Assembly (NCBI GenBank): GCA_020630975.1
Contig: JAHDID010000042.1
Coordinates: 1-53,449, forward strand
Direction of reading: 5' to 3'
DNA: 53,449 nt
Source: Verrucomicrobiota bacterium
GTDB taxonomy: Bacteria > Verrucomicrobiota > Verrucomicrobiia > Verrucomicrobiales > DEV007
The position numbers were made by a program, and so were the translations under genes. The notes under the pieces are model-generated. The model saw only the letters and a list, made by a program, of their open reading frames with translations. It was not told the origin of the DNA and made no database searches. Positions 2,483 to 49,348 of this stretch are shown one piece after another; the first letter of the stretch is position 1, and each line of letters starts with the position of its first letter.

Positions 2483-2583
2483 GATTTATGTAACCCTTAC
2501 TGCCTGTTTATTCTAGGTGTCAGCAAAGTGGCTATCCGGTTAATAGTGGCATACGTTGCTGATATGCAGTTTGGGGGCGTGTA

Positions 2584-2630
2584 GATGGTGTCAGGCGCAT
2601 TGGGGGTGAAGTATCTAGATTTCTTAAGTG
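2584..2630 (+). repeat. GTGTCAGG dispersed repeat, copy 1
   Basis: About 47 bp: a GTGTCAGG head, a spacer ending in GAAGTATC, then a TTTCTTAAGTG tail. Other copies are at 3037, 5759, 7404, 7501, 7541 and 8651. The form suggests a REP or MITE-like element; the mobiliser is not in the window. Confidence 0.6.
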
Positions 2631-2701
2631 TGTGTTCGTTTTTGGAAAATTTATAATGGATGGCCTGCAGTTGAGTGAATTGGAGCGACTTAAACGGAGA
2701 T

Positions 2702-2736
2702 TTGAATAGGGTACATTCCAGATTGAATAGGGTACA
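2702..2736 (+). repeat. Paired TTGAATAGGGTACA repeat
   Basis: TTGAATAGGGTACA occurs at 2702-2715 and again at 2723-2736, a 21 bp period. The same pair with the same period occurs in reverse orientation at 50205-50239. Confidence 0.7.
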
Positions 2737-3036
2737 ACGTGCAGATCTAGGGATGAGTGGTTGCTTGCCTCTGGTTTTAGGAGACAAATTGTTGTCAGTG
2801 GGGCAGGTAAACGAGCGTCTTGTCAAACTCTGCGCTAATGGACGTTGCTACTGGATGGCCCGCGGTCTACCGACCTTCGCTATAGCTCCGGCGAGCGGGC
2901 TGGATTGAGCATCGATAGTGGGATTTGTACTCGAAGGGGGAGGCGGTTGTGAAACCAACTTTACGTAAGTGTTTCGCCGGATTGGCTTTGCGACCTTTGC
3001 GTCTTTGCGCGAGGCTCTTTGTGGAGGCAATTGGGC

Positions 3037-3083
3037 ACACGGTGTCAGGTAGTTTGAAGAGAAAATATCAACATCTCTTAACT
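3037..3083 (+). repeat. GTGTCAGG dispersed repeat, copy 2
   Basis: A diverged copy that keeps GGTGTCAGGT, AAAATATC and CTCTTAACT. Confidence 0.5.
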
Positions 3084-3228
3084 TCCCACACACTGCCTGA
3101 GTTCTGTCCTCCGAATTCAATCACCGCTCCGGCATCGAACTTCAGACGTCTATTCAGCAGGGCCACCAAGTAACAGTTACTTTTGAAACCTTGATATTCT
3201 TCCCGGAATTCGCCTGGCACCATTTACA

Positions 3229-3415
3229 GGCAGCACCATTTACAGGCACGTTTAAGTTCTCGGCTCACAGTACTGGGGTGAACCCCTATTAACTCAGCGT
3301 TCTCCTTCTGACTAACCCGCTCCTTGCGAAGGCGTTAAATGATGTCACGCTGTTCTCGGGAGAGGCGTTTGAATGATTTTTTGATTTGGCATTGCTTGAT
3401 TTGGTAGTTGAGCAT
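3229..3415 (-). pseudogene. IS30-family transposase N-terminal remnant
   Basis: Reading the minus strand from the ATG at 3415 gives an IS30-type N-terminus. It has LSREQRDII, then an in-frame TAA stop, then RLRKERVSQKENAELIGVHP and STVSRELKRA. This is the helix-turn-helix of IS30 transposases (LS.eeR..I..l...G.s...IA..LGrs.STISRElkRN). The catalytic DDE part is absent. The left end runs into a 15 bp direct duplication (CACCATTTACAGGCA at about 3218-3247). It is a non-functional relic. Confidence 0.7.
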
Positions 3416-3486
3416 CGCTCTACCACAATCCAGCATTTCTTTCATTAGCACTTTGATCCCAAGTAATATTAAAAAATAATGTAGCT

Positions 3487-8836: not shown

Positions 8837-10909
8837 TTACTTTCTTATCGTAAACGGTGAAGCAGGCAGTCTTTCTTTGTTTGCCAAATTCACATCCAGC
8901 TTTTCTTTACCCATATCAAGATCGGCTCCGTAACGCACTGCAACGGGTTGCTGAACCGTTGTGGCACTGACCACTACTGTATCGCCTCTGATTTTTGCTT
9001 CTGCAGCCATAAAGGTTTCCCCATCCTCACTGATATAGAAACCGCGCAGAGGCTGTCCGTCGGATGCAATCAAACCGGAACCCATGTGGTCGAATGACAG
9101 GATCGCCGCACCGCCATTCACCTGCATAGATTTGATGACGGGGCCGGAATACACCAGGTTGGTTTCGCCATAGACCTTAGCGCGGGCAGCCAGGGCGAGG
9201 CGATGCCCGATAGGAGCCTTGGTGTTCGGATGGATGGGATGATTGTTTGCATCATAGTCTTTGGGGAGGTCGATCGTGACCGCCATAAAGGTGTTGGGAT
9301 TGTTTTTCCAGATATCGAGCTGGGCTTCGCGAAAGACGTGCCAGTTTCGTTCCTCAAAGCGCGGAAGCTGGACAAAGTAAAAAGGTAGTTCGTCATTGCC
9401 CCAGCTCTTTCGCCAGTCGTCCGCCATAGCAGGCAACAGCCTTTTCTGCTCCTCAAAGCGGCTGATATTGGCGGAGCCCTGATACCAGATAAAACCCTTC
9501 ACCGGGAACGGCATAACGGTCTTGATCATGGATTCATACAAGTAGGAGGAGGCATTGACCGTCTTCCCTTTCGGGTTTTTACGGTTCTGCTTTTCATACT
9601 TATCCCACAGCGGTAAATCCTGACTGAGAACCTCCGGGCTGCACCATGTCTCCGTGACGGTACCGCCATAGGTGCAGGTGATCAGCCCGACCGGAATGTC
9701 GATTTTTTCCTGTAATTCGCGGACAAAGTGATAGCCAACAGCACTCGTGATTTTTGTAACCTCGGAGTCCGGCCCGGCTTTTTCCCAACGCCCAGTTGAC
9801 GAAGCGAACCGTCGAGCACCCGGCACTTTAAACAAACGCAGCATTGGGTTTGCCGATGCGGCAAGGGCTTCCGCCCCATGTTTCTCCTTGAGCAAATAAT
9901 AGGCCATATTCGACTGCCCTGAAGCGAGCCAGACATCGCCAATGAGAATGTTGGAGTATCGAAGTGTGGGAGTATGGGAGTCGGTGGCAACGGTCATCGT
10001 CTGCGGTGCCTTATTCGCCTTCATCGGCGGGAAGAAAACGCGCCATTTCCCGTTGCGGGCAGTGCTGTCGAGATCATAACCGGCAAAAGTGACCGTCACA
10101 ACGGTGCCGTCTGCTGCCGTGCCCCAAACCGGAACAGGCGCGTTGCGCTGCAGGATCATATTATCGGAGAAAACATCCGGAAGAGTCAACGCCGGCTTAG
10201 CGGGTTCCGGAAGAGTGCTTCCGGGAGCGGCATGGAGCAACGCCACTTGATCAGAACTCAGCATATGATCATAAATACGCAGATCATAGATTTTTCCGTC
10301 AAACTGATTCTCCAGACGATTCGCAGTGTCCTCGAGGTTATAGCTGCCGACCCGAATGCCGGACAGTTCAGTTCGTTTCGCATCCTTTTTCGACGCAACC
10401 AACGCCCCGTTCATATAGTAAGACATGGTGTTCGACGACCAATCCCATGTGACAACCGCATGGTTCCACTCACCGACCGAAATCGCAGTTTCCCCCAGCG
10501 GAGTCCACCCATTATAAATAGCCCGTACGGCGAATTTTCCCTTCGGCACCATCAGCTTAACCCCCTTGCTCAGGAAAATATAGTTCCCGCCGGTCAGCGT
10601 TTCGGCTTTCAGCCATATACTGCACGAACCCGAGTCGAAGGTTGGGATATTTGGAAGCGTAAAGCCCGATTTATTCGAAGCGTTCATTCCAAGCTTCAGT
10701 GAGTTTGACGGCGCATCCTCAACCGCACCGGCCGGAATATCCGCGACAAACTGCGGCAACTCTATATGCACCCCATCCAACGTCGGCTTGCCGTGTTTCA
10801 TCCCAACGGAATCTTCGAGGTTCCCATCAAATGTATAACGATGCGACATTCTCGCCTGCGCGGAGAGACATCCCGCGCACAACAACAGTATAATCCAGAG
10901 TATTTTCAT
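8837..10909 (-). CDS. Secreted LamG plus sialate O-acetylesterase-like protein
   Basis: A 690-residue protein. Residues 1-18 form a signal peptide (MKILWIILLLCAGCLSAQA). A LamG/concanavalin-like domain follows (about 20-225; SCSIWLKAETL, GEWNHAVVTWDW, GKIYDLRIYDHMLS). From about 240 to 690 comes a sialate O-acetylesterase (SGNH) domain with the serine block GDVWLASGQSNM near 331-336, YGGTVTETWCSP, and a DANNHPIHPNTKAPIGHR segment that may hold the Asp/His. Homologues remove acetyl groups from sugars outside the cytoplasm; in PVC bacteria they are often plant- or algal-glycan deacetylases. It is the last gene of the minus-strand unit that starts at module A (18.9 kb). Substrate unknown. Confidence 0.85.
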   Translation of the reverse strand: MKILWIILLLCAGCLSAQARMSHRYTFDGNLEDSVGMKHGKPTLDGVHIELPQFVADIPAGAVEDAPSNSLKLGMNASNKSGFTLPNIPTFDSGSCSIWLKAETLTGGNYIFLSKGVKLMVPKGKFAVRAIYNGWTPLGETAISVGEWNHAVVTWDWSSNTMSYYMNGALVASKKDAKRTELSGIRVGSYNLEDTANRLENQFDGKIYDLRIYDHMLSSDQVALLHAAPGSTLPEPAKPALTLPDVFSDNMILQRNAPVPVWGTAADGTVVTVTFAGYDLDSTARNGKWRVFFPPMKANKAPQTMTVATDSHTPTLRYSNILIGDVWLASGQSNMAYYLLKEKHGAEALAASANPMLRLFKVPGARRFASSTGRWEKAGPDSEVTKITSAVGYHFVRELQEKIDIPVGLITCTYGGTVTETWCSPEVLSQDLPLWDKYEKQNRKNPKGKTVNASSYLYESMIKTVMPFPVKGFIWYQGSANISRFEEQKRLLPAMADDWRKSWGNDELPFYFVQLPRFEERNWHVFREAQLDIWKNNPNTFMAVTIDLPKDYDANNHPIHPNTKAPIGHRLALAARAKVYGETNLVYSGPVIKSMQVNGGAAILSFDHMGSGLIASDGQPLRGFYISEDGETFMAAEAKIRGDTVVVSATTVQQPVAVRYGADLDMGKEKLDVNLANKERLPASPFTIRK

Positions 10910-10939
10910 TAACTGATAGGCTAATTTTTCATCCTTTAC

Positions 10940-12464
10940 TTACTTAGTATCCACAGGCGATGGCCAGTGCGGAGAGTTGCTACGACTGGCGGCGAAGAAG
11001 GCTTCGAACTGTTGGGCTTTTTTGGGGTGCGACGCAGCGAGGTTGTTTTTCTCGGCGAGGTCGTTGGCGAGGTTGTAGAGTTGGGTTGGCTTATTAGCAA
11101 AGCGGATGGCTTTCCAGTCACCCATGCGCGCGGCTTGTTTGAAGCCGCCTTCGTAGAATTCCCAGTAGAGTTTGCGCTGGTGAAGATCCTGTTTCTGTCC
11201 GAGGAGCATGGGCAAGACGTTGAGGCCATCGGCGTTGCTCGGAGTATCGCCGCCGGCGAGAGCGGCGCAAGTCGGTAGTGCGTCGGCGAACCACCAGGGA
11301 TCGTTGCGGACCGAGCCGGATTGGATCTTGCCGGGCCAACGGACAATCATGGGCACGCGGATGCCGCCTTCGGTGAGATCGCGCTTGTGACCGGTGAGTG
11401 CACCGGAACTGTCGAAACGTCCATCCCAACGCTTGGCGGCGCCATTGTCGGAAGTAAAGAAAACGATAGTGTTGTCGTCGATGCCTAGTTCTTTGAGTAG
11501 TGCGAACATATCGCCCATATCTTCGTCCAGACGGGTGATCATAGCGGCGTGGACTTTTTCATCTTTCTTCCAGGGCTTGTCCGCGTAGGGACCCAGGTCT
11601 GGAATCTCATACCTTGAGTGGGGAATGAGATAGGGGAGATAGAGAAAGAAGGGCTTCGCCTTCGCGTGGCTGCGGATAAACTGAAGTGCGAATTCCGCAA
11701 ACATGTCGTGAGTATACTGTCCCTTTTTTACCGTCGGCGTTGCCGGGGAGCATGACTTTCTCCGTGTTGTTCCAGATATAGGTAGGGTAGTAGCTGTGGG
11801 CGCGGCGCTGGTTGATGTAACCATAGAATTCGTCCCAACCTTTCTTACCAGGTTCACCAGTGGTTCCCGGTTCGCCGATCCCCCATTTGCCGGTCATACC
11901 AGTGAGATGGACCCGACGTTCAGACCACTCCCAGCTCCTTTTAGAGCAGTCTTTATGGTTGCCCTTCGAGGCGCTAGCCCTGACCAGCACTCATTGCGAG
12001 CCTCCCATGGCTCGGAAAACCCTGCAATGCAAGGGGCGTTAGATCGGATTGAAAACCGGGGTCCTGCTCACAGTGACGTAACCGGCGTCTTTCATGACTT
12101 GTGCCAGGCAGTTGTCGTCAGCTTTCAATGGCACACTCCCCTCGCCACCGCCAAGTCCTTTAACCCCGCCCTTGCCAAAGTTGCCACGAACGGTCGTGTG
12201 GCCGGTATGTTGACCAGTCATCAGGACACTCCTAGCTGGCGCACAGACTGGCGCCCCCGAATAACAATCCGTGAAACGCACACCCTCGGCCGCCATCTGG
12301 TCGAGATTAGGCGTCTGGATGACTCTTTGGCCGTAGCTACCCAAATCGGCATAGCCCAAGTCGTCAGCCATAACGACAATGACGTTGGGTCGTTCTTCCG
12401 CCATGCTCAGCTTGATTCCTAAAAACAGGCAGGTAAGTGTTACGATTACTTGTCTCTTATTCAT
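10940..12464 (-). pseudogene. Sulfatase split by a MITE and a frameshift
   Basis: The N-terminal part has a signal peptide, the RPNVIVVMADDLGYADLGSY motif and the formylglycine site CAPARSVLMTGQ. The frame then enters a 167 bp MITE after GYVT and stops. Downstream of the element coding resumes at GMTGKWGIGEPGTTG. It breaks again at the A-run complementary to 11724-11729: a one-base shift separates GNADGKK from GQYTHDMFAEFALQF. The rest is intact to PSPVDTK (EDMGDMFALLKELGIDDNTI, FTSDNGAAKRWDG, GGIRVPMIVRWPG). This would have been a secreted arylsulfatase-type hydrolase. The MITE break is structural; the one-base shift could be a sequencing error. Confidence 0.9.
11905..12071. mobile_element. 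167 bp MITE with GGACCC inverted ends inside the sulfatase
   Basis: The ends are AGATGGACCC (left) and the complement of GTGAGCAGGACCC (right), flanked by a 4 bp direct repeat AGTG (CACT on the coding strand) at 11901-11904 and 12072-12075. Deleting the element plus one AGTG restores ..GYVTGMTGKWG.. in the sulfatase. It encodes no protein. I see no second copy in the window. Confidence 0.8.
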
Positions 12465-12465
12465 A

Positions 12466-12512
12466 GCGGGCTCTGTAGTGAATCACTCCTGAATCTGAGC
12501 AGAAGCTTTTCT
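12466..12512. repeat. 47 bp direct repeat, copy 1
   Basis: Identical to 33100-33146. It begins GCGGGCTCTGTAGTGAATCA and ends AGCAGAAGCTTTTCT. Here it abuts the start codon of the sulfatase pseudogene. At 33100 the same bases are the end of a glgX fragment and the last codons of another sulfatase, so this copy is out of context. Confidence 0.9.
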
Positions 12513-14044: not shown

Positions 14045-15793
14045 CTACTCCGCTAACTCCGGCCAGATCGATTTCATTTTCCAGGCGGTCAATTGTTTCA
14101 GCGTCGCGCTGCCACCTCTTGCCCGGAAAGAGACCAGCTGGCTGTCTTCTCGACTCGGATAGGTCCGGATGGTCAGGCATTGCCTGTCATTGGCAAAGAC
14201 TTCGACTACGCTGTGATCAATGAAGACTCGAAGGCGCAGAGGCGCATCCTCCTCTAACCAAAGCGGCCCTGACTCGGGCGTACGCGCAGGGACTCGTGGA
14301 TCGAGGCTGCTTTCGCTGACATCGATACTAAGTGTGTGTGCATTTTCTGATCTGCCATGCCATGCCTCGCGAAATATACGAATACGGGTGCGTTCTTCTC
14401 CTGCTGGTGAGTGGAGGATATCGAGAGATACCTCTCTGGCTTCGCGAAAATCGATTTCAGCCTCGATCTCAAGGGCGCGTCCGCTGACGTTCGGCAGGAC
14501 GACTTCTTTGCCGGACTCTACCGTGAGGTTTTCGATGCGGACTGACTCACCTCTTAGGCTTTTCAATTCCGCGACCGGTTCAATCTGTAGCGGGTTGAAG
14601 AAGTCTCGCAGATTCGACTCGATGATAAACGGTCTCTCCTGGAGCACGGGTGGTTTGCCATAGTCTTTATGGAGGGAAAGGACTCGTGGTAATGACATCA
14701 TACCCTTCCAGCCCTCGGTGATCACTTCACGCTTCGTTCCCATGTTTTCGGTGATATTGAAAATGGTGACCAGTCGCCCATCTGGCGTAATCAATCCTGA
14801 AGGAGCGTGAAGACTCCCGTAAAGAACTGGGCCGAAGCTGAACAGTTGACTGTGCTCTTCCTCGAATGAAAGCTTTTGTTTATCGTAACGACCAATGGTG
14901 TAGGCAGGTCCGCGGGCGTGGACAAAGTAGTAGAGTAGATGACGGTGTTTGCCGATTGGCATTAGACTGGCGCAGGCGAGGTCGTGTCCACGCTCAATCC
15001 CGTAGCGCTTTTCGAAGAAGGGTTCGGGATGCCGGGTCCATTTCCGGAGATCCCGCGAGTGAAAAAGGCTCAAGCGGGGGACTTTATTGTCCCAATGATA
15101 GAGGCCGGTGCGTTCTTTGGCCTGGCGAAGGATCATCCACCATTGATCATCCTCCTGCCAAAAGAAAGAGTCGATAGGAGTTGAGTGATCTGCCTGGAGT
15201 TCATCTCCGCTCAGAGCTTTCCAGGTCGTCCAGGATGAAAGATCCGGATCTTTTGAGCGGGCAAGGTAGACGCCATTTGTGCCCCGAGCGAAACTGAGCC
15301 AAGCCTCGTTTTCGGTCACCTGCATTTGTCCTGTGAGGCCAGCGATGCCGGGAATTCGGGCTCGGTCTTTCCAGTGAACCATGTCTTCGCTTACTGCGTG
15401 CCCTTTGCCGCCCGGGGAGATATAGAAAAGGTGATACTTGCCCTTCCAGTAGGCAAAGCCACCCGGGTCATGCAGAGTGCCGATTGGAGAGGAAAGATGG
15501 TAGCGGGGGCGGTGCGGGTCGTTGGCGAGAGCCTCGCGGGAGGCGGTAAGTGTGGCGATGTCGTTGGGAATAGGCAAAGCTGTTTCATCAGCGTTCGCCT
15601 GGATGGTTGTGCAGCAGGCTAGAAAGAGGAGTTTTGCGATGTGGTGGCGAGCGCCGACGAGTGGAGATTCATTGTATGAGCAAGGTTCTCCCGAAGATGC
15701 GGATAGGCTTTGCTGGTCCACTCGCTGGCGCTCGCCGCCACCTTTTAAACCAATACCAGCAATCAACTGTGATATGGACTTAGGGAACAACAT
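14045..15793 (-). CDS. GH32-type glycosidase with an insertion in its leader
   Basis: A 582-residue protein of the GH32/GH68 five-bladed propeller class with a C-terminal beta-sandwich. The propeller includes LHDPGGFAYWKGKYHLFY (candidate nucleophile Asp109, standing for the WMNDPNG motif). The sandwich ends with LRLRVFIDHSVVEVFANDRQ. Known members cleave fructans or sucrose. The usual acid/base motif ECP is replaced by GHDLACASLM, so the chemistry may differ. Residues 18-51 are encoded by a 102 bp in-frame hairpin element, which splits the leader (IAKLLFLACCTTIQANA is the likely hydrophobic core). The gene starts 10 bp after the PSD1 stop, so it is coupled to it. No better internal ATG exists in frame. 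Confidence 0.78.
   Translation of the reverse strand: MLFPKSISQLIAGIGLKGGGERQRVDQQSLSASSGEPCSYNESPLVGARHHIAKLLFLACCTTIQANADETALPIPNDIATLTASREALANDPHRPRYHLSSPIGTLHDPGGFAYWKGKYHLFYISPGGKGHAVSEDMVHWKDRARIPGIAGLTGQMQVTENEAWLSFARGTNGVYLARSKDPDLSSWTTWKALSGDELQADHSTPIDSFFWQEDDQWWMILRQAKERTGLYHWDNKVPRLSLFHSRDLRKWTRHPEPFFEKRYGIERGHDLACASLMPIGKHRHLLYYFVHARGPAYTIGRYDKQKLSFEEEHSQLFSFGPVLYGSLHAPSGLITPDGRLVTIFNITENMGTKREVITEGWKGMMSLPRVLSLHKDYGKPPVLQERPFIIESNLRDFFNPLQIEPVAELKSLRGESVRIENLTVESGKEVVLPNVSGRALEIEAEIDFREAREVSLDILHSPAGEERTRIRIFREAWHGRSENAHTLSIDVSESSLDPRVPARTPESGPLWLEEDAPLRLRVFIDHSVVEVFANDRQCLTIRTYPSREDSQLVSFRARGGSATLKQLTAWKMKSIWPELAE
15641..15742. repeat. 102 bp hairpin element inside the GH32 leader
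   Basis: The left arm GTGGTGGCGAGCGCC (15641-15655, continuing to 15665) pairs with the right arm ending GGCGCTCGCCGCCACC (15717-15742); the arms are about 25 bp long. The element is exactly 34 codons long and in frame. A half-site of the same family (CACTCGCTAGGCGCTCGCCG) lies at about 50410. No clear target duplication was found. Confidence 0.7.
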
Positions 15794-19260: not shown

Positions 19261-20808
19261 TTAGTTCGGTTGCCAAATTTTGTTCTTTCTCGCCCCGTGG
19301 TAGCCCTGGTTGGTGGGTTTCAGGGGCCAGACCTCGAGCGTTTTGAAAGTCGTCGTCGTGCCGTAGGTGTAGGCAGTGACACCGCTGCCGGAACGCCAAT
19401 CCAAATCAGCGGCAATCATCGCCTGCCGATCGTTGACGAATACCTCGACGAGATACTTGTCGATATAGATTCGGACATCCACGTCTTCGCCCTCGGGCAG
19501 ATCGGCCACGGCGAAAGGCGCTTTGGTCGTGCCTACCTGAAGCGTCCGGTGAGCGGGATCGATGATCACTGGCAGGCCCTCTTTCTCCTCCCCGGTGAAA
19601 AGCCGCAGGCCGAATCGTTTGCGCTTCGCTGCGCTGCGATCGACGGTGAGCCGCAGCTCGCAGGCGTCCCCCGGCAGATCGGTGATTTGTTTCAGGTTAT
19701 GCTTACCCCATACGCCAGGGCCGATTTTCACCTCAAAGTCTTCAAAAAACTGTCGCTCGCCGCGCAAAGTTTCGAGTTCGCGCAGCGGCCGGATGCGCAG
19801 TGTGCCGTCGTCCGCGAGGCTCAGCTCACGCGGTAGGGACTGGATGGTCTTCTGGTCGATCCGTTCGTCGAGCGTGGACAGCCAGGCCCACATCACACGG
19901 CGCCCGTCCTCGGCGAGGACACTTTCGGGCGCGAAGAAATCGGCTTGCGGCAGGGGCCAGGCGGGCGGTTCGAGGAAGTGAGGCCCCTGATCGGCTCGCG
20001 GCCAGTTCATGCGGGCGTGGGTTTCAGGCACGAATTGCTCCTTCTCCGCATCCCAGTCGCCCAGGTAGTATCGGCAGCCGTGGCTGTGGCTGATGCAGAG
20101 GAGCATCCACTTGTCTCCGATTGGAAAGAAGTTCGCGCAGGAAATATCCTCGCCGAGCAACACGTCGTCCGGCTCGTGGGAGAGGAATGGCCCCACATGG
20201 GTCCAGTTCTTCAGGTCGGTGGACTTGAAAAGCGGCTGCTCGTGGCCACCGGAAATCGCGTAGTAAGTATCGCCGATGAGGAAAAGGTCGGGATCCCAGT
20301 GGCGCTTGATGTCCGTCTCCGATCCATCAGCGTTTTTCACCTCGATCGGGTAGGGCTTTTCCCAGGCGGACAGTTTTCTGTCTTTGGCAATAGTGATATG
20401 GTTGCGCTTGGAGAGCCGACCGTGGTAGATCGCCGCCGGCCTGCCGTCCTTGGTGAAAAAACCCGTGCCGCTGAACATGCCGTGACCGGTGAACGATTGT
20501 TGCAGCTTGGTCGGCTGCCAGGTCCAATGCAGCATATCGGGACTGGTGACGTGGACAAAGGCGAAGGATTTTTCTTCCCCCTCCATGGTTCGCAGGATGT
20601 AGTGCAAATGGTACGTTCCATCCAGAAAAAACGCCGCGTTGGGATCACCCGGCCGACTGTCTTCGCCCGGATGCATCAGGTGGTAGTTCAGCGCGAGCGG
20701 GTCAGCATCGTCGTCAGCCCAGCTCACACTTGCCGCAGCAAGGATGGTGGAGGTGATAAGGACGACGGGGTGATGGCTTTTGAGCTTCCTGTTCTTCTTG
20801 AATTTCAT
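19261..20808 (-). CDS. GH32-type secreted glycosidase
   Basis: A 515-residue protein with a signal peptide whose core is VVLITSTILAAASVSWA. The GH32 propeller shows GDPNAAFFLDGTYHLHY (candidate nucleophile Asp55), RHWDPDLFLIGDTYY (Asp172, for the RDP motif) and GEDISCANFFPIGDKWMLL (Glu220 close to Cys224, for the ECP motif, but shifted). A beta-sandwich ends with VDVRIYIDKYLVEVFVNDRQ. Likely acts on fructan-like or other beta-linked sugars in the periplasm. It is the only intact gene of unit B, followed by a uxuA relic. Its signal peptide is related at DNA level to that of the PSD1 protein at 24.5 kb, as if promoter and leader were copied together. Confidence 0.82.
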   Translation of the reverse strand: MKFKKNRKLKSHHPVVLITSTILAAASVSWADDDADPLALNYHLMHPGEDSRPGDPNAAFFLDGTYHLHYILRTMEGEEKSFAFVHVTSPDMLHWTWQPTKLQQSFTGHGMFSGTGFFTKDGRPAAIYHGRLSKRNHITIAKDRKLSAWEKPYPIEVKNADGSETDIKRHWDPDLFLIGDTYYAISGGHEQPLFKSTDLKNWTHVGPFLSHEPDDVLLGEDISCANFFPIGDKWMLLCISHSHGCRYYLGDWDAEKEQFVPETHARMNWPRADQGPHFLEPPAWPLPQADFFAPESVLAEDGRRVMWAWLSTLDERIDQKTIQSLPRELSLADDGTLRIRPLRELETLRGERQFFEDFEVKIGPGVWGKHNLKQITDLPGDACELRLTVDRSAAKRKRFGLRLFTGEEKEGLPVIIDPAHRTLQVGTTKAPFAVADLPEGEDVDVRIYIDKYLVEVFVNDRQAMIAADLDWRSGSGVTAYTYGTTTTFKTLEVWPLKPTNQGYHGARKNKIWQPN

Positions 20809-21093: not shown

Positions 21094-21834
21094 ATGACAA
21101 CCACAAGAACAGACTTGAAACCACTAGTCACAATCACTGGAGCCAGCTCAGGTATCGGTGCGGCTACCGCCAAAGCCTTTTCTCAAGCTGGACACCCATT
21201 GCTTTTATTGGCCAGGCGGATCGATCGGATGCAGGCGCTGGACTTGCCGGATGCTATCTGCAAAGAAGTGGATGTGCTGGATCGCGAGGCCATCGCTTCC
21301 GCTATCGAAGAGGCAGAGGCCAAATTCGGTCCTACAGAGTATTTTATCAATAATGCCGGTGTCATGCACAATGGTGATCCCATCACTCAGGATCCTGAAG
21401 AGTGGGATCGGATGATTGATGTAAACCTCAAAGGTGTGATGAATGGCATCCACGCAGTGTTGCCTGGAATGGTCGAGCGAGAGTCGGGTACGATTGTCAA
21501 TATGGGCTCGATCGCCGGTCGTAAAACCTTTGGCACGCACTCGGTCTATTGCGGCACCAAATTCGGGGTCCACGCCATCACCGAAACCATTCGCGAAGAA
21601 GTCTCTCAGAAAAATGTCCGATTGATCACCATGGCGCCAGGGATGGTCGGCACTGAGCTGATCGAGACCATCACTGACCCGGCAGCAAAGCAGGGTTGGC
21701 TGGACTACGCCGAGTCGATTGGCGGCCCTCTGGTACCCGAAGATATCGCTGATGCTATTGTCTGGGCATGCCAAGCTCCACAGAGGATGTGCGTGCGCGA
21801 GATGGTGATCTGTCCAACGCGTCAGGAGCCGTAG
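21094..21834 (+). CDS. Short-chain dehydrogenase/reductase
   Basis: A 246-residue classical SDR. TGASSGIGAATAKAF near residues 14-28 is the Rossmann cofactor loop, NNAGVM is structural, and Ser in NMGSIAG with YCGTK (YxxxK) form the active site. There is no signal peptide, so it is cytoplasmic. SDRs of this type oxidise or reduce sugars, sugar acids or alcohols with NAD(P). Next to mannonate dehydratase, a role as a fructuronate/mannonate or related sugar-acid reductase is plausible but unproven. It is one of two complete plus-strand genes in this locus, divergent from the GH32 gene across module B, so it may share the control region. Confidence 0.85.
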   Translation: MTTTRTDLKPLVTITGASSGIGAATAKAFSQAGHPLLLLARRIDRMQALDLPDAICKEVDVLDREAIASAIEEAEAKFGPTEYFINNAGVMHNGDPITQDPEEWDRMIDVNLKGVMNGIHAVLPGMVERESGTIVNMGSIAGRKTFGTHSVYCGTKFGVHAITETIREEVSQKNVRLITMAPGMVGTELIETITDPAAKQGWLDYAESIGGPLVPEDIADAIVWACQAPQRMCVREMVICPTRQEP

Positions 21835-21858
21835 CTCTTTAAGGATTAAATCTATACA

Positions 21859-21899
21859 AAGTGTACCCGGTACACCTTTTTTATGTACCGGGTACACTT
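21859..21899. terminator. Perfect 16 bp hairpin between convergent genes
   Basis: AAGTGTACCCGGTACA at 21859-21874 pairs with TGTACCGGGTACACTT at 21884-21899, with a T-rich loop. It lies 24 bp after the SDR stop and before the convergent uxuA end. It could serve as a terminator on either strand, though no clear T-tract follows. It shares the GGGTACA core with other repeats in the window, so it may be a REP-like element. Confidence 0.5.
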
Positions 21900-21935
21900 C
21901 ACAAATTCATGCTGGTTTGTATACGTTTCTCCTTT

Positions 21936-21974
21936 ATTTAACAGGGTACAATGACTCATCATACCCTGTTAAAT
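21936..21974. terminator. Perfect 13 bp hairpin between convergent genes
   Basis: ATTTAACAGGGTA at 21936-21948 pairs with TACCCTGTTAAAT at 21962-21974 over a 13 bp loop. This second hairpin in the same 200 bp gap would fit a bidirectional terminator for SDR and uxuA. Confidence 0.5.
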
Positions 21975-22040
21975 GAGGGGATTTTCTTGATTGTTCCAAG
22001 TGGAAAAAAATTCTGAACTATGGTTGGAGGCTACGCCTCG

Positions 22041-23012
22041 CTATAACTTTCTGGCAGATTCAATGAGGCCCTGCATATAGCCAATAGCGTGGAGGCGTCC
22101 GAGCATGGTGTAGCCGGCGTGGTCGGTAGATTCGCCTTGTAACACCGGGACGTGGTCGGGCCGAATGGGGCCGTCAAAGCCGATCTCCAGGTAGGTGCGA
22201 ATGGCCTCGGCCATGTCAGTCGGGCCGTTGTCGTGAAAAGTTTCCACGAACTTCGGTACAGCGCCACGCACATCCCGGAAGTGTACATATTTGATGCTGT
22301 CTCCGAAGTGACGAATGTTCTCTATCACGTCAACGCCCATTGATGCAAAACTCCCCTGGCAGAAACACATCCCGTTCGCCGGGCTGGATGACAGGCTAAG
22401 CAACCGATCAAAGGCCGCGGGTGAGATCATGATCTGATCGTAACCGCGAAAGGGTGACATGGGCGGATCGTCGGGATGACAGGCCAGGGCTACCCCTTCC
22501 TTTTCGGCAACCGGCAACAAGCGCTCCAGGAAATATTCCAAATTTTCCCAGAGCCTGTCCGCCGGAACCCGGTCTTCCGCTGCAGTTTCGGAGTCGCGGG
22601 AAGTTCCATCGGCAAGAAGTGTCGAAACCGACTCCATCTCATTCGCGTCAAAGGCCGACACCAATGCTCCACCTCGCTCCGGCACTTCAACCGAGGTGCG
22701 GTTCCAGTTTCCGCTTGGCATAAAGTTGTAACAGAGAATCGGAATCTCAAGCCGGCCCATTTGGCGAATGACGTTCGCGATTTCCTCGATGTCTTCATCG
22801 CGCCCGTCCTGTCCCAGCACGGGGCGGACCAACGGCAAGTTATTTTCGATGACGGCGAGACGCAACCCGATCGCGGTAATGCGCGCATGCAACGCATCGA
22901 AACCCTCCGGTTCCGGCCTCGGACAGTCGGCGACTATATCGGTGACGCCGATCTGAGCAGCCAGGCGCAGCTTATCGTCGGTCATCGGGCGGGTGACTAG
23001 AGAAAGGCGCAT
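22041..23012 (-). CDS. uxuA: Mannonate dehydratase
   Basis: A 323-residue cytoplasmic protein, shorter than the E. coli enzyme (about 394). Family blocks are clear: ACHPDDPPMSPFRGYDQI, GMCFCQGSFASMG, YVHFRDVRG, FVETFHDNGPTDM and RPDHVPVLQGE. These supply the metal-binding His, Cys and Asp residues. The enzyme dehydrates D-mannonate to 2-keto-3-deoxygluconate, linking uronate breakdown to central metabolism. It is the third gene of unit C, after DUF1501. The presence of a uronate enzyme argues that the glycan handled here contains uronic acids. Confidence 0.93.
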   Translation of the reverse strand: MRLSLVTRPMTDDKLRLAAQIGVTDIVADCPRPEPEGFDALHARITAIGLRLAVIENNLPLVRPVLGQDGRDEDIEEIANVIRQMGRLEIPILCYNFMPSGNWNRTSVEVPERGGALVSAFDANEMESVSTLLADGTSRDSETAAEDRVPADRLWENLEYFLERLLPVAEKEGVALACHPDDPPMSPFRGYDQIMISPAAFDRLLSLSSSPANGMCFCQGSFASMGVDVIENIRHFGDSIKYVHFRDVRGAVPKFVETFHDNGPTDMAEAIRTYLEIGFDGPIRPDHVPVLQGESTDHAGYTMLGRLHAIGYMQGLIESARKL

Positions 23013-43106: not shown

Positions 43107-43763
43107 CTATTCGCCTTCCCAGAGTCTAATGCAGTCGATCACCAGTCGACTACTCGGACCATCTAATGCTTTGAATGTGAATTCATCGCGCGACCGCATT
43201 GAAATCTGTTCATGTTCGATGATGTGTTGGTGGCCATTGAGGTTGAGGAGGAGTTTTCCTTCTGTCAGTTCGATCACGAGGTCTACCCATTCATTGAGGG
43301 CAAAACTGGATTGTCGATCTTCGATCACTTCGCCGCCGGATAGTTTCAAGGTGTAGCCGCCCTTTCTGAAAAACAGATTGTTGATATGGTGACCTATATC
43401 GAGCTTGGGTCGGGCAGCTTGGTAGTCGTCGCCTTCAAACTTGAATCGCAGGTGGCAAACGAAGTTCTCTGGGAGGTGGTTCAAACGAATCACTGGTCCC
43501 AATCCCAGGTGGTGGTCACGTCCCAGAGCCTTCATCGCCTCTTCGGCGTTTCTAAAATCGGGAGCTCCGATTAACATCCCATCTTTTACCTGCCAGTTTC
43601 GGGTACGGGGCTCCCATTGCTCTCGGTTCAACTCGCCATCGAAATCGTCTGAGTAGACCAGAGTTCCCTTTTCAAATAAGTGGGACTGGAAAGGGGGATC
43701 TTCGGCAAAGAGATTCGAGCTGAGGATGAGTAGGGGGAATAGAGCTGAGAGTGGTTTAATCAT
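43107..43763 (-). CDS. Secreted concanavalin-like protein, DUF1080-like
   Basis: About 218 residues from ATG 43763 (MIKPLSALFPLLILSSNLFA, signal peptide). A beta-sandwich domain follows (GTLVYSDDFDGELNREQWEP, WQVKDGMLIGAPDF, LNEWVDLVIELTEGKLLLNL). It resembles the DUF1080 / 3-keto-disaccharide hydrolase or LamG group. Proteins of this kind are common in PVC glycan loci and may bind or process disaccharides outside the cytoplasm. It is encoded downstream of the enolase-superfamily gene, on the same strand. Confidence 0.75.
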   Translation of the reverse strand: MIKPLSALFPLLILSSNLFAEDPPFQSHLFEKGTLVYSDDFDGELNREQWEPRTRNWQVKDGMLIGAPDFRNAEEAMKALGRDHHLGLGPVIRLNHLPENFVCHLRFKFEGDDYQAARPKLDIGHHINNLFFRKGGYTLKLSGGEVIEDRQSSFALNEWVDLVIELTEGKLLLNLNGHQHIIEHEQISMRSRDEFTFKALDGPSSRLVIDCIRLWEGE

Positions 43764-43877
43764 GGATGCTTGATGGGGAGGGATCTTGTAGGGCGATGTT
43801 TGGAACACAGATGAACACGAATTTGCGCGGACCTGATGGGCTTTGTTGGGTTGATCTAGTGGAGTAGGGGAGCCGCT

Positions 43878-45122
43878 TTACGCCAATCGCTTCCGGCTGA
43901 CTACAAATTTTTCGTCGTATTCGTAGCCTAGTCCAGGCTTACCGGATGGCTTGAAGTAGTAGCCGTCGAATTGGATAGGCTCTTTGAAAAATTGATTCTT
44001 GTTGAGGCCCTTGGGGCCGGTTGGATTTTCCCGTAGGGTGTTGGCTTCTAGGATCAATACATTGGGAGTGGCCATGCAGAGGTTGGCCATGGCTACCCAG
44101 GTGAGGGGGCCGTAGCTGAAAAAATGTGGGGCGATCTGTAAGCCTCGCATTTCGGCTAGGGAGGCGATCTTACGAGCTTCGGTGAGGCCGCCGACGTTGG
44201 GTGGCGATAGATTGAGAATCGATGCAGCTCGCTTGTCGATCAGGCGGGTGAAGTCATCCAGGCCCTGGAGGTTTTCGCCGGTCGCGATGGGGATGGTGGT
44301 GGCTGCTGCTACTTCGGCCATTTCATCCATACTGCTGGTGGCTGCGGTGGGCTCTTCGATCCAGAGTAGGTCATACTTTTCCAGTGGCTTGCAGGTGGCG
44401 ATGGCACCTGCGGCGCTGCATTGGCCATGGCCGCCGTGGATCAGGTCGACCTTGTCGCCGGCGCCTTCGCGCAGGCAGCGGAAGACCATCTCGTTGTACT
44501 TGATGTTTTCCTCGGTCGGCATGCGGCCGCCAGACTCGTAGACGGTGTCTTCCCAGACTTTTCTGTCGCCAAATCGCTCGTATACCAACCAGGGATCGAC
44601 CTTTACTACGGCACCGGGTTGCTTGGCTAGGTCTCGACCGAGCGCGCGCCAGGCATCTTCATTCTCCAGCTGCTTTTTTGGGGGCTTGCCGTAGTAGTAG
44701 ATACGGATGCGGTCGCGCACGGGACCGCCGAGTAGCTCGTAGACGGGGCGACCGGTTTCGCGACCGAGCAGGTCCCATAGGGCGTAATCGACGGCGGTGC
44801 GATGCGAGCAGAGAACACCGGCACGGCGCATGGTTGACCAGATGGCTTCTACGGCAAAGGGATTGGCACCGATGAGGTGCTCCCGAGCGACCCCGCCTAG
44901 TGCTGGTGCATAGTCGAGATCTGGGAAATCTGCATAACCTGCGGTGCCGGTGCTGGAGATGATTTTTAGGACGTGGCGCTGTTCGCTATTTTGTTTTAGA
45001 GTGAGTAGCTCTAGGGCTGCGATATGGTCGCTGGATTGCGCTGCTAGGTCTAGTCTGGGCAGTCCGGTGATGGCTCCTGCGCCTAGTACAGATTGTTTGA
45101 GGAAGTTGCGGCGATTGGTCAT
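43878..45122 (-). CDS. Tat-exported enolase-superfamily protein (sugar-acid dehydratase-like)
   Basis: A 414-residue protein. MTNRRNFLKQSVLGAGAITG is a Tat leader, which is unusual for a family that is normally cytoplasmic. Capping domain: TAVDYALWDLLGRETGRPVY. Barrel: a KxD motif (VVKVDPW, Lys174), LLWIEEP (Glu256/Glu257), ATGENL (Glu283) and APHFF (His333). The usual first metal ligand Asp (as in VDFHGR) is replaced: the sequence is DLIHGGHGQ (His229, Gly230, His232). It could be a dehydratase with altered metal binding, or an inactive relative. It is encoded 94 bp after the sulfatase-enolase fusion gene, so likely one operon. Confidence 0.85.
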   Translation of the reverse strand: MTNRRNFLKQSVLGAGAITGLPRLDLAAQSSDHIAALELLTLKQNSEQRHVLKIISSTGTAGYADFPDLDYAPALGGVAREHLIGANPFAVEAIWSTMRRAGVLCSHRTAVDYALWDLLGRETGRPVYELLGGPVRDRIRIYYYGKPPKKQLENEDAWRALGRDLAKQPGAVVKVDPWLVYERFGDRKVWEDTVYESGGRMPTEENIKYNEMVFRCLREGAGDKVDLIHGGHGQCSAAGAIATCKPLEKYDLLWIEEPTAATSSMDEMAEVAAATTIPIATGENLQGLDDFTRLIDKRAASILNLSPPNVGGLTEARKIASLAEMRGLQIAPHFFSYGPLTWVAMANLCMATPNVLILEANTLRENPTGPKGLNKNQFFKEPIQFDGYYFKPSGKPGLGYEYDEKFVVSRKRLA

Positions 45123-45215: not shown

Positions 45216-47729
45216 CTATGGGTTCAGCTCTGCGATTCGCTTTACCTGAAATTTGGTTTCGTCGATTTCGCAGGATTCTGTAGTTAGCGATCCTTTGGTT
45301 ATTTGTAGTGGCTCCTTCAGCACGCCATCCGCCTTTAGCCACTCGTCTTGGTAGCGGGAGGTTATCCATAGTACCTCTTCACGATGAGTGAGTGATCGTG
45401 CGACTGTGATTAGGGAAAGTGGGCCGCCCTGGACTATGGGAGCAATCTTTAGTTTGGCTTCTTGCGCGAGGTCGGCTGTTCGAGCTAGCATGGCGACTCC
45501 GCCGATGTGACCGGCATCTGGTAGTAGCACGGTGCCTGCTTGGTGTTTGATGCCTTGAGCGAAATCTTCGAGTTTGTGATAGTCTCCTCCGAATCCTAGG
45601 GCTTGGTGGAATTCTTTGCGGGCCTCGCCCTGCTCGGGTAGATGTCGCAGCGCCATGGGATTCTCTAGTAGGGTTACTCCATTCCGTTGGCAATGGATGG
45701 CTAGATAGGTCATGCCATCGGTGCTTAGGTTTAGGTCGGCGGCGATGGTGATATCCATGTCTGGATCGGCGGCTTGTTTGGCAGCTAGGACCAGCTGGCT
45801 GATCTGGCCTAGTACCTCCTGCGGGTAGCGATAGGGGGCGCATTCGCCGCGGGCTTTCATCTCATCGTCGAGGGCTCCGGCTAGCTTTAGGCGTACGGCG
45901 GTAAAGCCCGCTTGTTTTAGCGATGCCACGCGCTGGTGCATTTCGTCAGGTGTGCAGAGGCGGCGCTGGCCGTCTGCCTCGTGGTCGATCGTGATCGATG
46001 GGCAGAGCCGTATTTGGCATGGGGTGGCTTCTTCGGCTAGGTCTAGCAGGGCTGACTGCAGGGCGATGATTAGGCCGGCTTTTCCGGGACCTTGCCACAT
46101 GGGGCCAAATCCGTCTCTTTGGTACAGGGCTCGTCCGGGCCATTCGCGGGTTCTGGCATTGAGTAGGTATTTGGCAGTTTGGCCGATCACCGTGTGCCCG
46201 CCATCCACGGCTCGCATCGATGGGTCGGTCATGAATATATTTTGCTTGTGACCCTGTGCCGCGTACCGGTTCACCAGTCTTGCCAGTGTCTCCTCGGCTT
46301 CCTTAGCAGGTAGGCCGAAATCTAGGTAATCGCCATAGCCCTTAGCACCGCCTCGTGTCGTCAGGCGGATGACGCGTAGCTGTGACTCGGCTGCCGATCT
46401 GGGCTCTCTAATAGTCAGTAGATCGGCGGCGACGATCTCGTCCGTTTCTTTAGTAGGGAAGACTACTGGGGTGTCCTCCAGCCAGTCATTCATATACTCA
46501 GACAGCTCCTTTACCTTCTCAGGATTCTGCGCAGCGAGATCGGTGCGGTCGTCTGGATCTTTCTTTAGGTCATAGAGTTCGCGGCTGTCAGGTCGTGCGA
46601 TCAACTTGTCCCAGCCATCGATGACGACACGTGCGATCAGGTCGCTATCCCAGTCCTCTAGTGCATCGACTCGGATATTGTCCGAGTATAGGTCTATAAA
46701 GATGCGGTCTCGCTCAGCTAGGGCCTCCGAGTCCCTCAAATCCAGCCCGGACATGGCCTGGTCGGGCTCGATGCCGCAGGCGCTCAAGATCGTCGGTGCA
46801 ATATCTATATTGCTAGCCAGTGTCGTCTGGTCACGACGGGGGGCGATTTTGTTTTTGTGAGTTAGGAAGATCGGCGTCCGCACACCGGCTTCGACTGGTT
46901 CTTTTTTAGATCGTGTATACCAGCCGACTTTCTCCGGATCTGGGCGCCAACCATTGTCAGCGGAGAAGACGAAGAGCGTGTCATCATATAGATTCTTTTC
47001 TTTCAAATGGTCTACCAACTGTCCGCAGGTCTCGTCGAGCCAGGCGACATTGGCCCAATAACGTGCCGTCGACTCATCTGGGGCCAGATCCTTGTATTTC
47101 AGGTAAAGCCGATCCGGGGCATCGTGCGGCGTGTGCGGTAGAAAGACCGCATACCAGATAAAGAAAGGCTGGGCGTTTTTCTGTGCCTGGTCGACGAAGC
47201 GGTAGATCGGCTCCATGGTCTTGCGACCGATCCCGTGACCAAAGCCTTCGTCAAATCCATGGTCGAGAGGATTTCCCTCCCACCACTTACCGGTCTGCAG
47301 CGTCGCATAGCCACTAGCCTGCAGCTGCTTTACCATGGATGGCGCATGCTCCAGAGTAGCAGTCATGAGTTTCGATTGCTGCTGTGCCAGAGGCCATAGT
47401 TTTTCGTTTTTCCTCAATCTTCTGTGATCGACACCCTCACCCATAAAGGGGCGATTGCCCCGTACGCCTGTCTGGTGCGGATATAGCCCGGTAACGATGC
47501 TGGCTAGAGACGGACGACATATCGCAGCGGTGGTGTAGCCGCGTTCATATAGTAAGCCTTCGCCTGCTAGTTGGTCTAGATGGGGTGTCTCGATATGCGG
47601 ATGCCCCATGAATCCGTAGTCGTCCCAGCTCTGGTCATCGCTGAGGATGAATACCACGTTTGGTCTGTCGCCTGCCTGCGATAGTAGGCAGGTGGTGAGT
47701 AGAGTTAGTATAAGAAACAGGATTCTCAT
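45216..47729 (-). CDS. Sulfatase fused to an enolase-superfamily domain
   Basis: About 837 residues from ATG 47729 (MRILFLILTLLTTCLLSQA, signal peptide); the frame is open 23 codons further upstream. Counting from that upstream end: residues 44-450 are a sulfatase (DRPNVVFILSDDQSWDDYGF, active-site AAICRPSLASIVTGLYPHQT with Cys94, LQTGKWWEGN, FVFSADNGWRPD). Residues about 470-860 are a full enolase-superfamily unit, with capping-domain helices (ALQSALLDLAEEA), RLKL (Lys638), ADLN (Asp688), LLENP (Glu712) and LLPDAGHIGG (Asp761). The motif CRPSL lacks the arginine of canonical CxPxR. The frame is continuous with no stop or shift at the join. Predicted to be exported as one chain. The fusion suggests coupled desulfation and dehydration of a sulfated sugar acid; the substrate is unknown. 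Confidence 0.9.
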   Translation of the reverse strand: MRILFLILTLLTTCLLSQAGDRPNVVFILSDDQSWDDYGFMGHPHIETPHLDQLAGEGLLYERGYTTAAICRPSLASIVTGLYPHQTGVRGNRPFMGEGVDHRRLRKNEKLWPLAQQQSKLMTATLEHAPSMVKQLQASGYATLQTGKWWEGNPLDHGFDEGFGHGIGRKTMEPIYRFVDQAQKNAQPFFIWYAVFLPHTPHDAPDRLYLKYKDLAPDESTARYWANVAWLDETCGQLVDHLKEKNLYDDTLFVFSADNGWRPDPEKVGWYTRSKKEPVEAGVRTPIFLTHKNKIAPRRDQTTLASNIDIAPTILSACGIEPDQAMSGLDLRDSEALAERDRIFIDLYSDNIRVDALEDWDSDLIARVVIDGWDKLIARPDSRELYDLKKDPDDRTDLAAQNPEKVKELSEYMNDWLEDTPVVFPTKETDEIVAADLLTIREPRSAAESQLRVIRLTTRGGAKGYGDYLDFGLPAKEAEETLARLVNRYAAQGHKQNIFMTDPSMRAVDGGHTVIGQTAKYLLNARTREWPGRALYQRDGFGPMWQGPGKAGLIIALQSALLDLAEEATPCQIRLCPSITIDHEADGQRRLCTPDEMHQRVASLKQAGFTAVRLKLAGALDDEMKARGECAPYRYPQEVLGQISQLVLAAKQAADPDMDITIAADLNLSTDGMTYLAIHCQRNGVTLLENPMALRHLPEQGEARKEFHQALGFGGDYHKLEDFAQGIKHQAGTVLLPDAGHIGGVAMLARTADLAQEAKLKIAPIVQGGPLSLITVARSLTHREEVLWITSRYQDEWLKADGVLKEPLQITKGSLTTESCEIDETKFQVKRIAELNP

Positions 47730-47763: not shown

Positions 47764-47813
47764 CTAACACTAACTCTGTACGATGAATCAATTTTCACTA
47801 AAAAACACTAATG
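47764..47813. repeat. Half copy of the AACACTAA repeat
   Basis: CTAACACTAACTCTGTACGA then TTTTCACTAAAAAACACTAA matches the right half of the element at 38500-38549. It lies in the gap upstream of the fusion gene, 35 bp before its ATG, so it may affect that gene's promoter or leader. Confidence 0.65.
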
Positions 47814-47837: not shown

Positions 47838-49190
47838 TCACACGTCGCTCTTTCGGCGCTTCATTGCCGGAGATGGATCGGGTACCGTTTTGAGATAGGT
47901 CGAGAGGCGAGCTTTTAGCTGCTTAGCTATTTCAGTCTGCTCGCTGTATCGATCGTGCTGCTCGGCGATATCTTCTACGACATTGAAAAGCTTGGCAGAC
48001 TGGACCTCGCGCTCAGTATTGATCTCGGCCAGTAGCTTCCACTGACCAGAGCGAATCACGGCCATTCCCTGCCTAGGCCTTGAGAAAATCAGGCCGTCGA
48101 CTGGTCGCTGCACCGCATCTGTTTTTGGATCGGTGAATAGGCAGGCAAAGCTCCCGCCATCTAGTTCATCCGAGAGACTACCCTCGCCTCCAGCCAGGTC
48201 AAAAAAGGTAGGTAGAAAGTCATAGCCTGCTACTGGCACACGGCAGATCGATCCCGCCTCGATAGTAGGGCCGCGCACCATCAGAGGCACCCGTATACCA
48301 CCCTCGAGCAAGGAGTGCTTGGCGCCAGATAGAGGGACATTGGGCGCAGGGCTCTTAGGATCGCCACCGGGCACAGCACCTCGGCCGCCATTGTCGGTGG
48401 TGAAGATCACATAGGTGTTATCTGAGATATCCAGAGCATCGAGCTCGTCGAGTATCCTGCCGATGCCGCTGTCTACCTCCTCGAGCATACCGGCCCAGCC
48501 GGGGGAGTAGGCTCGGTCTGGGGCTCCTTTTTGCTGATACTTTTCCAGCGAGCTTTGCATCAGCTCCGTCCGCAGATGCACGGCGTAATAGCTCACCTGG
48601 GTGTAGAAAGGCTTGCCGGCCTGAGTTTGCTCTCGGATGAACTCGATCGAGCGATCGGTGACCGAGCCTGTGCGCTTCGGATCGTCGACGATGTGGGCTG
48701 GTTTCATCTTATCAGCCATGCCGCCGGTGACATTGCCGGTGTGGCCGTCGCTCACGTCGTAGCCACACTCCTCCGGCGAGGAGATCATCTTCTCGCCCCA
48801 TTTGCCAAAGTGAGCGCAACGGTAGTCGGGGTTAGCCTGTTTCAGGGCTCGAGGAATGGTCAGGTGATCCGCCGGTACCCACTGGCTCTCAAACTCCGTG
48901 CCCGAGCGAGCCGCGCTGGTGCTGCAGAGGATGGCTCGGCGAGTCGGGGTACAGAGAGGGGCGGGGGAATAGCCACCAGTGAATCGCATGCCTTCCTCCG
49001 CTATGCGATCCATCGCGGGTGTGTGCAGGTAGCTCGACCCGCTCGCAGTGTTGTCCGGATCCATCAGGCCCGAGCGCTGGCTCCAGCCCTGATCATCGGT
49101 GAGGATCAGAATGATATTGGGCGGATCAGCCAGGGCCACAGCCGTGAATCCGAAAAGTGTGAGAAGCAAGCAATAGAGAAGTCGGTTCAT
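47838..49190 (-). CDS. Secreted sulfatase
   Basis: About 450 residues from ATG 49190 (MNRLLYCLLLTLFGFTAVAL, signal peptide); an upstream ATG at 49208 is possible. Motifs are PPNIILILTDDQGWSQRSGL, the formylglycine site CTPTRRAILCS, CAHFGKWGEKM, VIFTTDNGGRGAVPG and GGIRVPLMVRGP. It has the full sulfatase core without an extra domain. It is encoded just upstream of the fusion gene with a 108 bp gap, on the same strand. Target glycan unknown. Confidence 0.93.
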   Translation of the reverse strand: MNRLLYCLLLTLFGFTAVALADPPNIILILTDDQGWSQRSGLMDPDNTASGSSYLHTPAMDRIAEEGMRFTGGYSPAPLCTPTRRAILCSTSAARSGTEFESQWVPADHLTIPRALKQANPDYRCAHFGKWGEKMISSPEECGYDVSDGHTGNVTGGMADKMKPAHIVDDPKRTGSVTDRSIEFIREQTQAGKPFYTQVSYYAVHLRTELMQSSLEKYQQKGAPDRAYSPGWAGMLEEVDSGIGRILDELDALDISDNTYVIFTTDNGGRGAVPGGDPKSPAPNVPLSGAKHSLLEGGIRVPLMVRGPTIEAGSICRVPVAGYDFLPTFFDLAGGEGSLSDELDGGSFACLFTDPKTDAVQRPVDGLIFSRPRQGMAVIRSGQWKLLAEINTEREVQSAKLFNVVEDIAEQHDRYSEQTEIAKQLKARLSTYLKTVPDPSPAMKRRKSDV

Positions 49191-49348
49191 GAGCGCAATC
49201 ATTAGCAATCTAGCTCATTCATAAAAGCCGATTTGGCTCGGGCGCTAAAGATCGGTTTCGTGATAATTGCGTAGGGCAGATTCTGAGATTGGGTGATTCA
49301 TTGCGGGGGGATTTCAGGCCTTGTTGGCCGGTATGGTCTAGAGGGAGC

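Follow-up and report, generated by a model that had tools for sequence, protein, structure and literature searches.

Can a single exported protein first desulfate a sugar acid and afterwards dehydrate it? The question is raised by an open reading frame that joins a sulfatase to an enolase-superfamily domain, for which an earlier note on this DNA had proposed such two-step chemistry in one enzyme. The frame lies in a stretch of 53,449 nucleotides (the window) from a bacterium recorded as Verrucomicrobia. The sulfatase half is referred to as S, the enolase-superfamily half as E1 and a second enolase-superfamily protein encoded downstream as E2.

Composition of the fused gene

The fused gene and its direct neighbours are all encoded on the minus strand:

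47838..49208, minus strand: second sulfatase, upstream neighbour of S (PF00884)
45216..47729, minus strand: fused gene S-E1, 837 aa, ATG start at 47729 (open frame and Pfam)
47673..47729, minus strand: Sec-type leader, residues 1-19 (by eye)
46479..47663, minus strand: sulfatase half S, residues 23-417 (PF00884 and SGSH_C)
46437..46457, minus strand: junction PTKETDE, seven residues, 425-431 (comparison with relatives)
45219..46436, minus strand: enolase-superfamily half E1, residues 432-837 (MR_MLE_C and profile comparison)
43878..45122, minus strand: E2, Tat-type enolase-superfamily protein, 414 aa (PF13378 E 3.3e-47, PF02746 E 4e-9)

An open-frame check of the assembly sequence found no stop within the 837-aa frame, which bears out the earlier description of a single uninterrupted chain and adds its strand. 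A stop or frameshift between the halves, a possibility raised at the time, is rejected in view of the open frame and of the relatives, which differ through a deletion and not a point change. The residue numbers then used were 23 too high for the ATG start and match a GTG start at 47798; Lys638, Asp688, Glu712 and Asp761 correspond to Lys615, Asp665, Glu689 and Asp738 when counted from the ATG. The claimed signal peptide is visible by eye as a hydrophobic leader, MRILFLILTLLTTCLLSQA. A Pfam search of both halves, as had been suggested, gave matches above cut-off in each: PF00884 at residues 23-320 (E 1.2e-44, 153.3 bits vs a cut-off of 25), with SGSH_C at residues 275-417, and MR_MLE_C (PF13378) at residues 597-816 (E 1.9e-14, 54.3 bits vs a cut-off of 29.4). 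The fusion protein matches 226 places in its own genome, some of which are pieces of one gene, and because nearly all of these lie in the sulfatase half, among the matches listed, the sulfatase as such is ordinary in this genome.

The N-terminal cap model PF02746 was not matched by E1 in the Pfam search. Cap and barrel nevertheless both appear to be present, because a profile comparison with eight enolase-superfamily proteins spans E1 positions 4-403 (98.1%, E 7.7e-14). Two AlphaFold models of E1 were both poor (mean pLDDT 39.0 and 45.3), probably due to a shallow alignment. When the second model was searched against the PDB with Foldseek, the 50 rows listed were named mandelate racemase or enolase-superfamily proteins at TM values of about 0.30-0.37, which weakly supports an enolase-superfamily fold; the alignment behind this model included E2 rows. 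The best solved matches are 6prm, an exo-4S-kappa-carrageenan sulfatase, for S (E 1.3e-34) and 3sjn for E1 (E 1.7e-5, remote profile alignment).

A Tat-leader enolase-superfamily protein had been placed 94 bp downstream. Both the protein and, by eye, its leader with the twin-arginine motif RRNFLK are present, and the gap measures 93 bp. E2 is followed by a 233-aa protein (window 43107-43808, minus strand) with a sub-threshold 3keto-disac_hyd match only; a protein similar to it by eye is encoded at 19147-19815 of L096, one of the relatives described below.

Unfused relatives and distribution

A scan of public genomes yielded 203 relatives of the fusion protein, the best 80 of which were analysed. 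Two of these 80 loci hold both S and E1: L005, from a Verrucomicrobiales genome of the window's genus (G028), and L007, from a single-cell genome. In both, S and E1 are encoded by two distinct adjacent genes with a 7-nt gap, each of which has a leader of its own, and the E1 frame is shifted by +1 against that of S. Between the conserved ends of S and E1, these relatives have 220 nt (L005) and 130 nt (L007), comprising the S stop, the spacer and the E1 leader, vs 21 nt in the window, a net loss of 199 and 109 nt, respectively. A fourth intact E1 (L096, from genome G639) is found alone beside E2, with S not adjacent. In G031, identified by equal coordinates as the genome behind L008, the S-E1 junction is unreadable because S and a remnant of the E1 tail lie at separate contig ends. 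Within the S gene itself, at 9366-9413, the public contig L008 ends in what we take to be an adapter of the Nextera transposase, and this contig end therefore looks artefactual.

The only fused copy among the four intact E1 sequences is that of the window. The earlier note had suggested looking for the same fusion in other genomes; none was found, the other intact copies (L005, L007 and L096) all being unfused. Because these are separate genes, the sequence comparison is best explained by a fusion that arose in the window's lineage. A deletion spanning some 109-199 nt would have removed the S stop, the spacer and the E1 leader and joined both frames, after which one leader would export both domains. 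With S and E1 expected to act in one compartment and encoded as direct neighbours in two relatives, fusion would have been an easy step, and the arrangement hints at joint action. The junction is seen in one draft assembly of 158 contigs, which, together with the unfused state of the other copies, would also suit an assembly chimera in an organism that has two separate genes as its relatives do. Such an artefact, however, would have to delete the stop, the spacer and the leader and at the same time bring the two halves into frame, which is beyond a single-base indel or a miscalled base, and we regard it as very unlikely.

Enolase genes near S are not a general trait: among loci L005-L084 they were seen in L005 and L007 only, within frames of at least 200 aa and with contig ends limiting the view. 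An E2 fragment of 138 aa, too short for this cut-off, is present in L010, a locus of genome G390, where it adjoins an 889-aa protein containing an S-type sulfatase. S-type sulfatases thus occur in other long chains as well. They lie within chains of 889-890 aa at 3978-6647 of L010 and 288-2960 of L009, the N- and C-terminal parts of which were matched by no Pfam model, and the start of the L010 E2 fragment seems by eye to duplicate the end of the upstream gene.

Few of the genomes sampled carry E1. It was found in 3 of 33 genomes of the genus and 3 of 74 of the family, namely the window's own, G028 and, as a contig-end remnant, G031. Of the seven genomes behind chosen loci, three carry E1: that of L007 and two with coordinates equal to G028 and G031. 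The wider sets are samples of larger groups, several sets overlap and the searches scored at most a few candidates per genome; they gave 3 of 386 genomes of the order (again the window's own, G028 and G031), three matches among 273 of L007's order (two true E1 genomes and G439, with a remote Tat-type enolase only), 1 of 387 from the phylum at large (the window's own, with G028 and G031 not among the matches and evidently undrawn) and, with no positive control, 0 of 392 from the phylum of the Aporhodopirellula genome, which we take to be Planctomycetota. A further set of 8 genomes, likewise with no positive control, gave none.

In the family, the 3 of 74 genomes that carry E1 are also those with E2; within L007's order, E2 is intact beside E1 in G639 and present as the above fragment in G390. 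E1 usually occurs with E2. Strict pairing of the two was dropped, L007 carrying E1 with no adjacent E2 and G390 an E2 fragment only. In L007, E1 is directly followed by a gene similar by eye to the PhoD-type gene of L005. Tat-type enolases are also found elsewhere with no E1 (G439, L095).

Active-site residues of S, E1 and E2

The positions discussed in this section are the following:

47505..47519, minus strand: CRPSL, residues 71-75, formylglycine signature of S with Leu where Arg is expected (alignment and SulfAtlas paper)
45885..45893, minus strand: R613-x-K615 of E1, K-x-K position; Lys in the window's genome only, Glu in three relatives
45735..45743, minus strand: A663-A664-D665 of E1, Ala663 being the first metal-ligand position (profile alignments)
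45663..45665, minus strand: Glu689 of E1, second metal-ligand position, invariant in 4/4 E1
45582..45584, minus strand: Asp716 of E1, third metal-ligand position, invariant in 4/4 E1 and unlisted in the earlier note
45516..45518, minus strand: Asp738 of E1, mandelate racemase Asp270 position, no His partner (four E1 compared)

The full sulfatase core that had been claimed for S holds as far as PF00884 and SGSH_C are concerned and fails at the signature. S resembles the S1 formylglycine-dependent sulfatases (PF00884) in fold by sequence, in its leader by eye and in its calcium and catalytic residues, and differs in carrying CRPSL in place of CxPxR; the C/S-x-P-x-R signature includes the Arg that stabilises formylglycine (FGly). 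Besides the window's own, 83 S loci were aligned, three of them from the same genome, and Leu occupies the Arg position (+4) in 82: 71 CRPSL, 7 CRPAL, 2 CRASL, 1 CCPSL and 1 CRSSL. CTPTR is found in the one remaining locus, which encodes a distant sulfatase from the window's own genome. These loci were gathered by similarity to the S-E1 protein, via patterns outside the signature motif. The remaining active-site and calcium residues of S, D31, D32, K148, H199, D258, N259 and K275 (roles in part presumed by us, in part from PMC5066984), are all present and are kept across the clade wherever the alignment covers them, except in L026, a fragment with Arg at S position 199. The accessible text of the SulfAtlas paper gives Arg at the signature in 99% of 4058 sequences and describes Ile or Leu in nine sequences from Lentisphaerae/Planctomycetes, which 'may be inactive' (PMC5066984). 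The breadth of the CRPSL clade and its otherwise retained active-site residues argue against simple decay. Because the clade is devoid of the FGly-stabilising Arg, desulfation by S must be considered uncertain.

For E1, a full enolase-superfamily domain with four catalytic residues had been described. The letters and their order are correct; two of the four assignments are not borne out, Lys615 being Glu in all three intact relatives and Asp665 lying beside a ligand site that falls on Ala663. The comparison follows the usual numbering and residue roles of mandelate racemase. Instead of the K-x-K general base, E1 has Arg-x-Lys in the window and Arg-x-Glu in L005, L007 and L096, the codon at position 615 being AAG in the window vs GAA, GAA and GAG, respectively. 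In each of the four profile alignments shown for this site (3sjn, 5xd9, 5xd7 and 2ovl), the first metal ligand falls on Ala663 with no gap there, and Ala occupies this position in all four E1 sequences, so that the usual three acidic ligands are incomplete. This register is taken from remote alignments (best E 1.7e-5), and ligand spacing varies over the whole enolase superfamily. Asp665 sits two residues past the first metal-ligand position, and a register error of two residues could make it a ligand, yet the position is Asp in two of the four sequences and Asn in the other two. Asp738 is invariant in all four, and the His of the His-Asp pair is absent from its usual place in all four. Also kept are the segments GGDYH and VQGGPLS and the loop ALDDEMKARGEC-PYRYPQE, within which one residue varies. 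Compared with the mandelate racemase/muconate lactonizing branch (PF13378), E1 is therefore alike in cap and barrel, by profile comparison, and in Glu689, Asp716 and Asp738, and differs in the missing K-x-K, the Ala at the first metal position, the missing His, its export and the remoteness of its similarity.

E2 keeps Lys174, Glu256, Glu283 and His333. Its first metal-ligand position is occupied by Gly230, no acid, as in 4e5t. The nearest solved relatives of E2 are the enolase-superfamily structures 4e5t, 4e4u and 3rcy, the first two of which share with it G-x-H-G-Q at this position; E2 differs from all three by its Tat-type leader. Both E1 and E2 stay below the NCBIfam equivalog cut-offs for sugar-acid dehydratases (galactonate, talarate/galactarate), the galactonate dehydratase model giving 21.5 bits for P0001 and 155.2 bits for E2 against a cut-off of 311.

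A bifunctional periplasmic enzyme, taking sulfate off a sugar acid and then dehydrating it in one chain, would agree with the presence of both domains in one exported protein, with Lys615 in the window copy, with the retained Glu689 and Asp716, and with a transporter near S in L005 that is described below. Dehydration by E1 is not supported, however, because the Lys is unconserved, Ala stands in for the first metal ligand in 4/4 and the His is missing in 4/4. The dehydratase scores, the unfused state of E1 elsewhere and a sulfatase with no signature Arg likewise count against this proposal of the earlier note, which we consider distinctly unlikely. With Lys615 present, the fused E1 might itself have reacquired a base.

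Between the window and L005, dN/dS is 0.052 for E1 and 0.067 for S, with dS near saturation. Pairwise E1 values range from 0.05 to 0.17 where computable, one of six pairs being saturated and most others having high dS. Lineage-unique residue changes in E1 number 27 in the window and 27 in L005. Judged from these codon comparisons, selection on the fused E1 is not relaxed and purifying selection has been kept. The loss of its own leader and the differing residue 615 might suggest that the fused half is decaying baggage, but the frame is open, dN/dS is as low as in unfused copies and the unique changes are balanced, leaving decay scarcely credible. A different active site, composed of Arg-x-Glu/Arg-x-Lys, Glu689, Asp716, Asp738 and the above loop, might instead turn over a sugar acid, with or without its sulfate. 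The low dN/dS and the retention of the loop, GGDYH, VQGGPLS and the two remaining acids in four sequences are consistent with such activity, but invariance in four sequences fits binding equally, and we see this as possible, if rather unlikely.

Export, neighbourhood and proposed role

At E <= 1e-5, PF13378 matches four proteins in the window's own genome and seven in G028. Leaders are visible by eye in two of the four (the start of one, L105, being uncertain) and two of the seven, in each case E1 and E2 only, and the remark that export of two enolase-superfamily proteins is odd is fair for these two genomes. The fused E1 appears to have lost its own leader and gained that of S, so that its export would be kept.

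A gene similar to the second sulfatase is the direct upstream neighbour of S in L005 and lies at a greater distance upstream in L008 (orthology by eye). In L005, TctA and TctC/TctB transporter genes lie about 3-6 kb upstream of S. Transporters of this family take up small acids, which would suit the import of an acidic product; the hint is a weak one, because no such transporter is found among the 20 window proteins scanned with Pfam.

Other parts of the window hold further genes of interest. A UxuA-family mannonate dehydratase (22044-23012, Pfam) is encoded beside a short-chain dehydrogenase lookalike (by eye; 21094-23012 together), suggesting uronate use. Two GH32-type proteins (14045-15793 and 19261-20808, minus strand) are located in a sulfatase-rich region, and a broken sulfatase gene lies at 10900-12500 (minus strand), its start at about 12177-12437 and its end at 10940-11857 being in different frames. 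A GmrSD-type restriction protein adjoins a large protein with a TIR-like start by eye (533-2482 and 3487-5655), and base composition around this 533-5655 region is lower, at 38-43% GC.

Our preferred reading, held tentatively and with somewhat less than even confidence, is that S-E1 is a lineage-specific fusion within a rare cassette S-E1-E2, comprising a non-canonical sulfatase, a non-canonical partner and, in E2, the likelier catalyst. S, as a member of the CRPSL clade, would probably remove a sulfate group in the periplasm. Because E1 combines an enolase-superfamily fold (by sequence), devoid of the usual acid-base and metal set, with continued purifying selection, it would most likely work alongside S and E2 in their shared compartment, either binding a ligand or acting in some other non-canonical way. 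E2, with Lys174 and His333 retained, would be the likelier seat of enolase-superfamily chemistry, if any occurs. Against this reading stand the two poor models of E1, the remote alignments to solved structures with their possible two-residue shift, Lys615 of the window copy, E1 with no adjacent E2 in L007, E1 with no adjacent S in L096, Gly230 of E2, and a junction seen in one assembly. A bolder version, which we hold to be unlikely, is a periplasmic S-E1-E2 system for sulfated sugar acids, in which an Arg-less sulfatase would work with a Sec/Tat-exported E1/E2 pair of a new active-site type lacking the first metal ligand, S and E1 being covalently linked in the window's lineage to let substrate pass along a single chain. 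In keeping with the earlier statement that no described family with this sulfatase-enolase order was known to its author, no description of the architecture or cassette was found in the accessible text of the open-access papers searched, that of PMC8857213 included.

The E1 comparison also carries a caution: a catalytic set read from a single sequence can be coincidental, the key Lys being private to the window's genome among four copies. Sulfatase-like proteins with no signature Arg make up a broad, conserved clade rather than a few stray copies, making their activity worth testing. In bacteria recorded as Verrucomicrobia, the exported cassette would put two enolase-superfamily proteins where sulfated polysaccharides are cut up.
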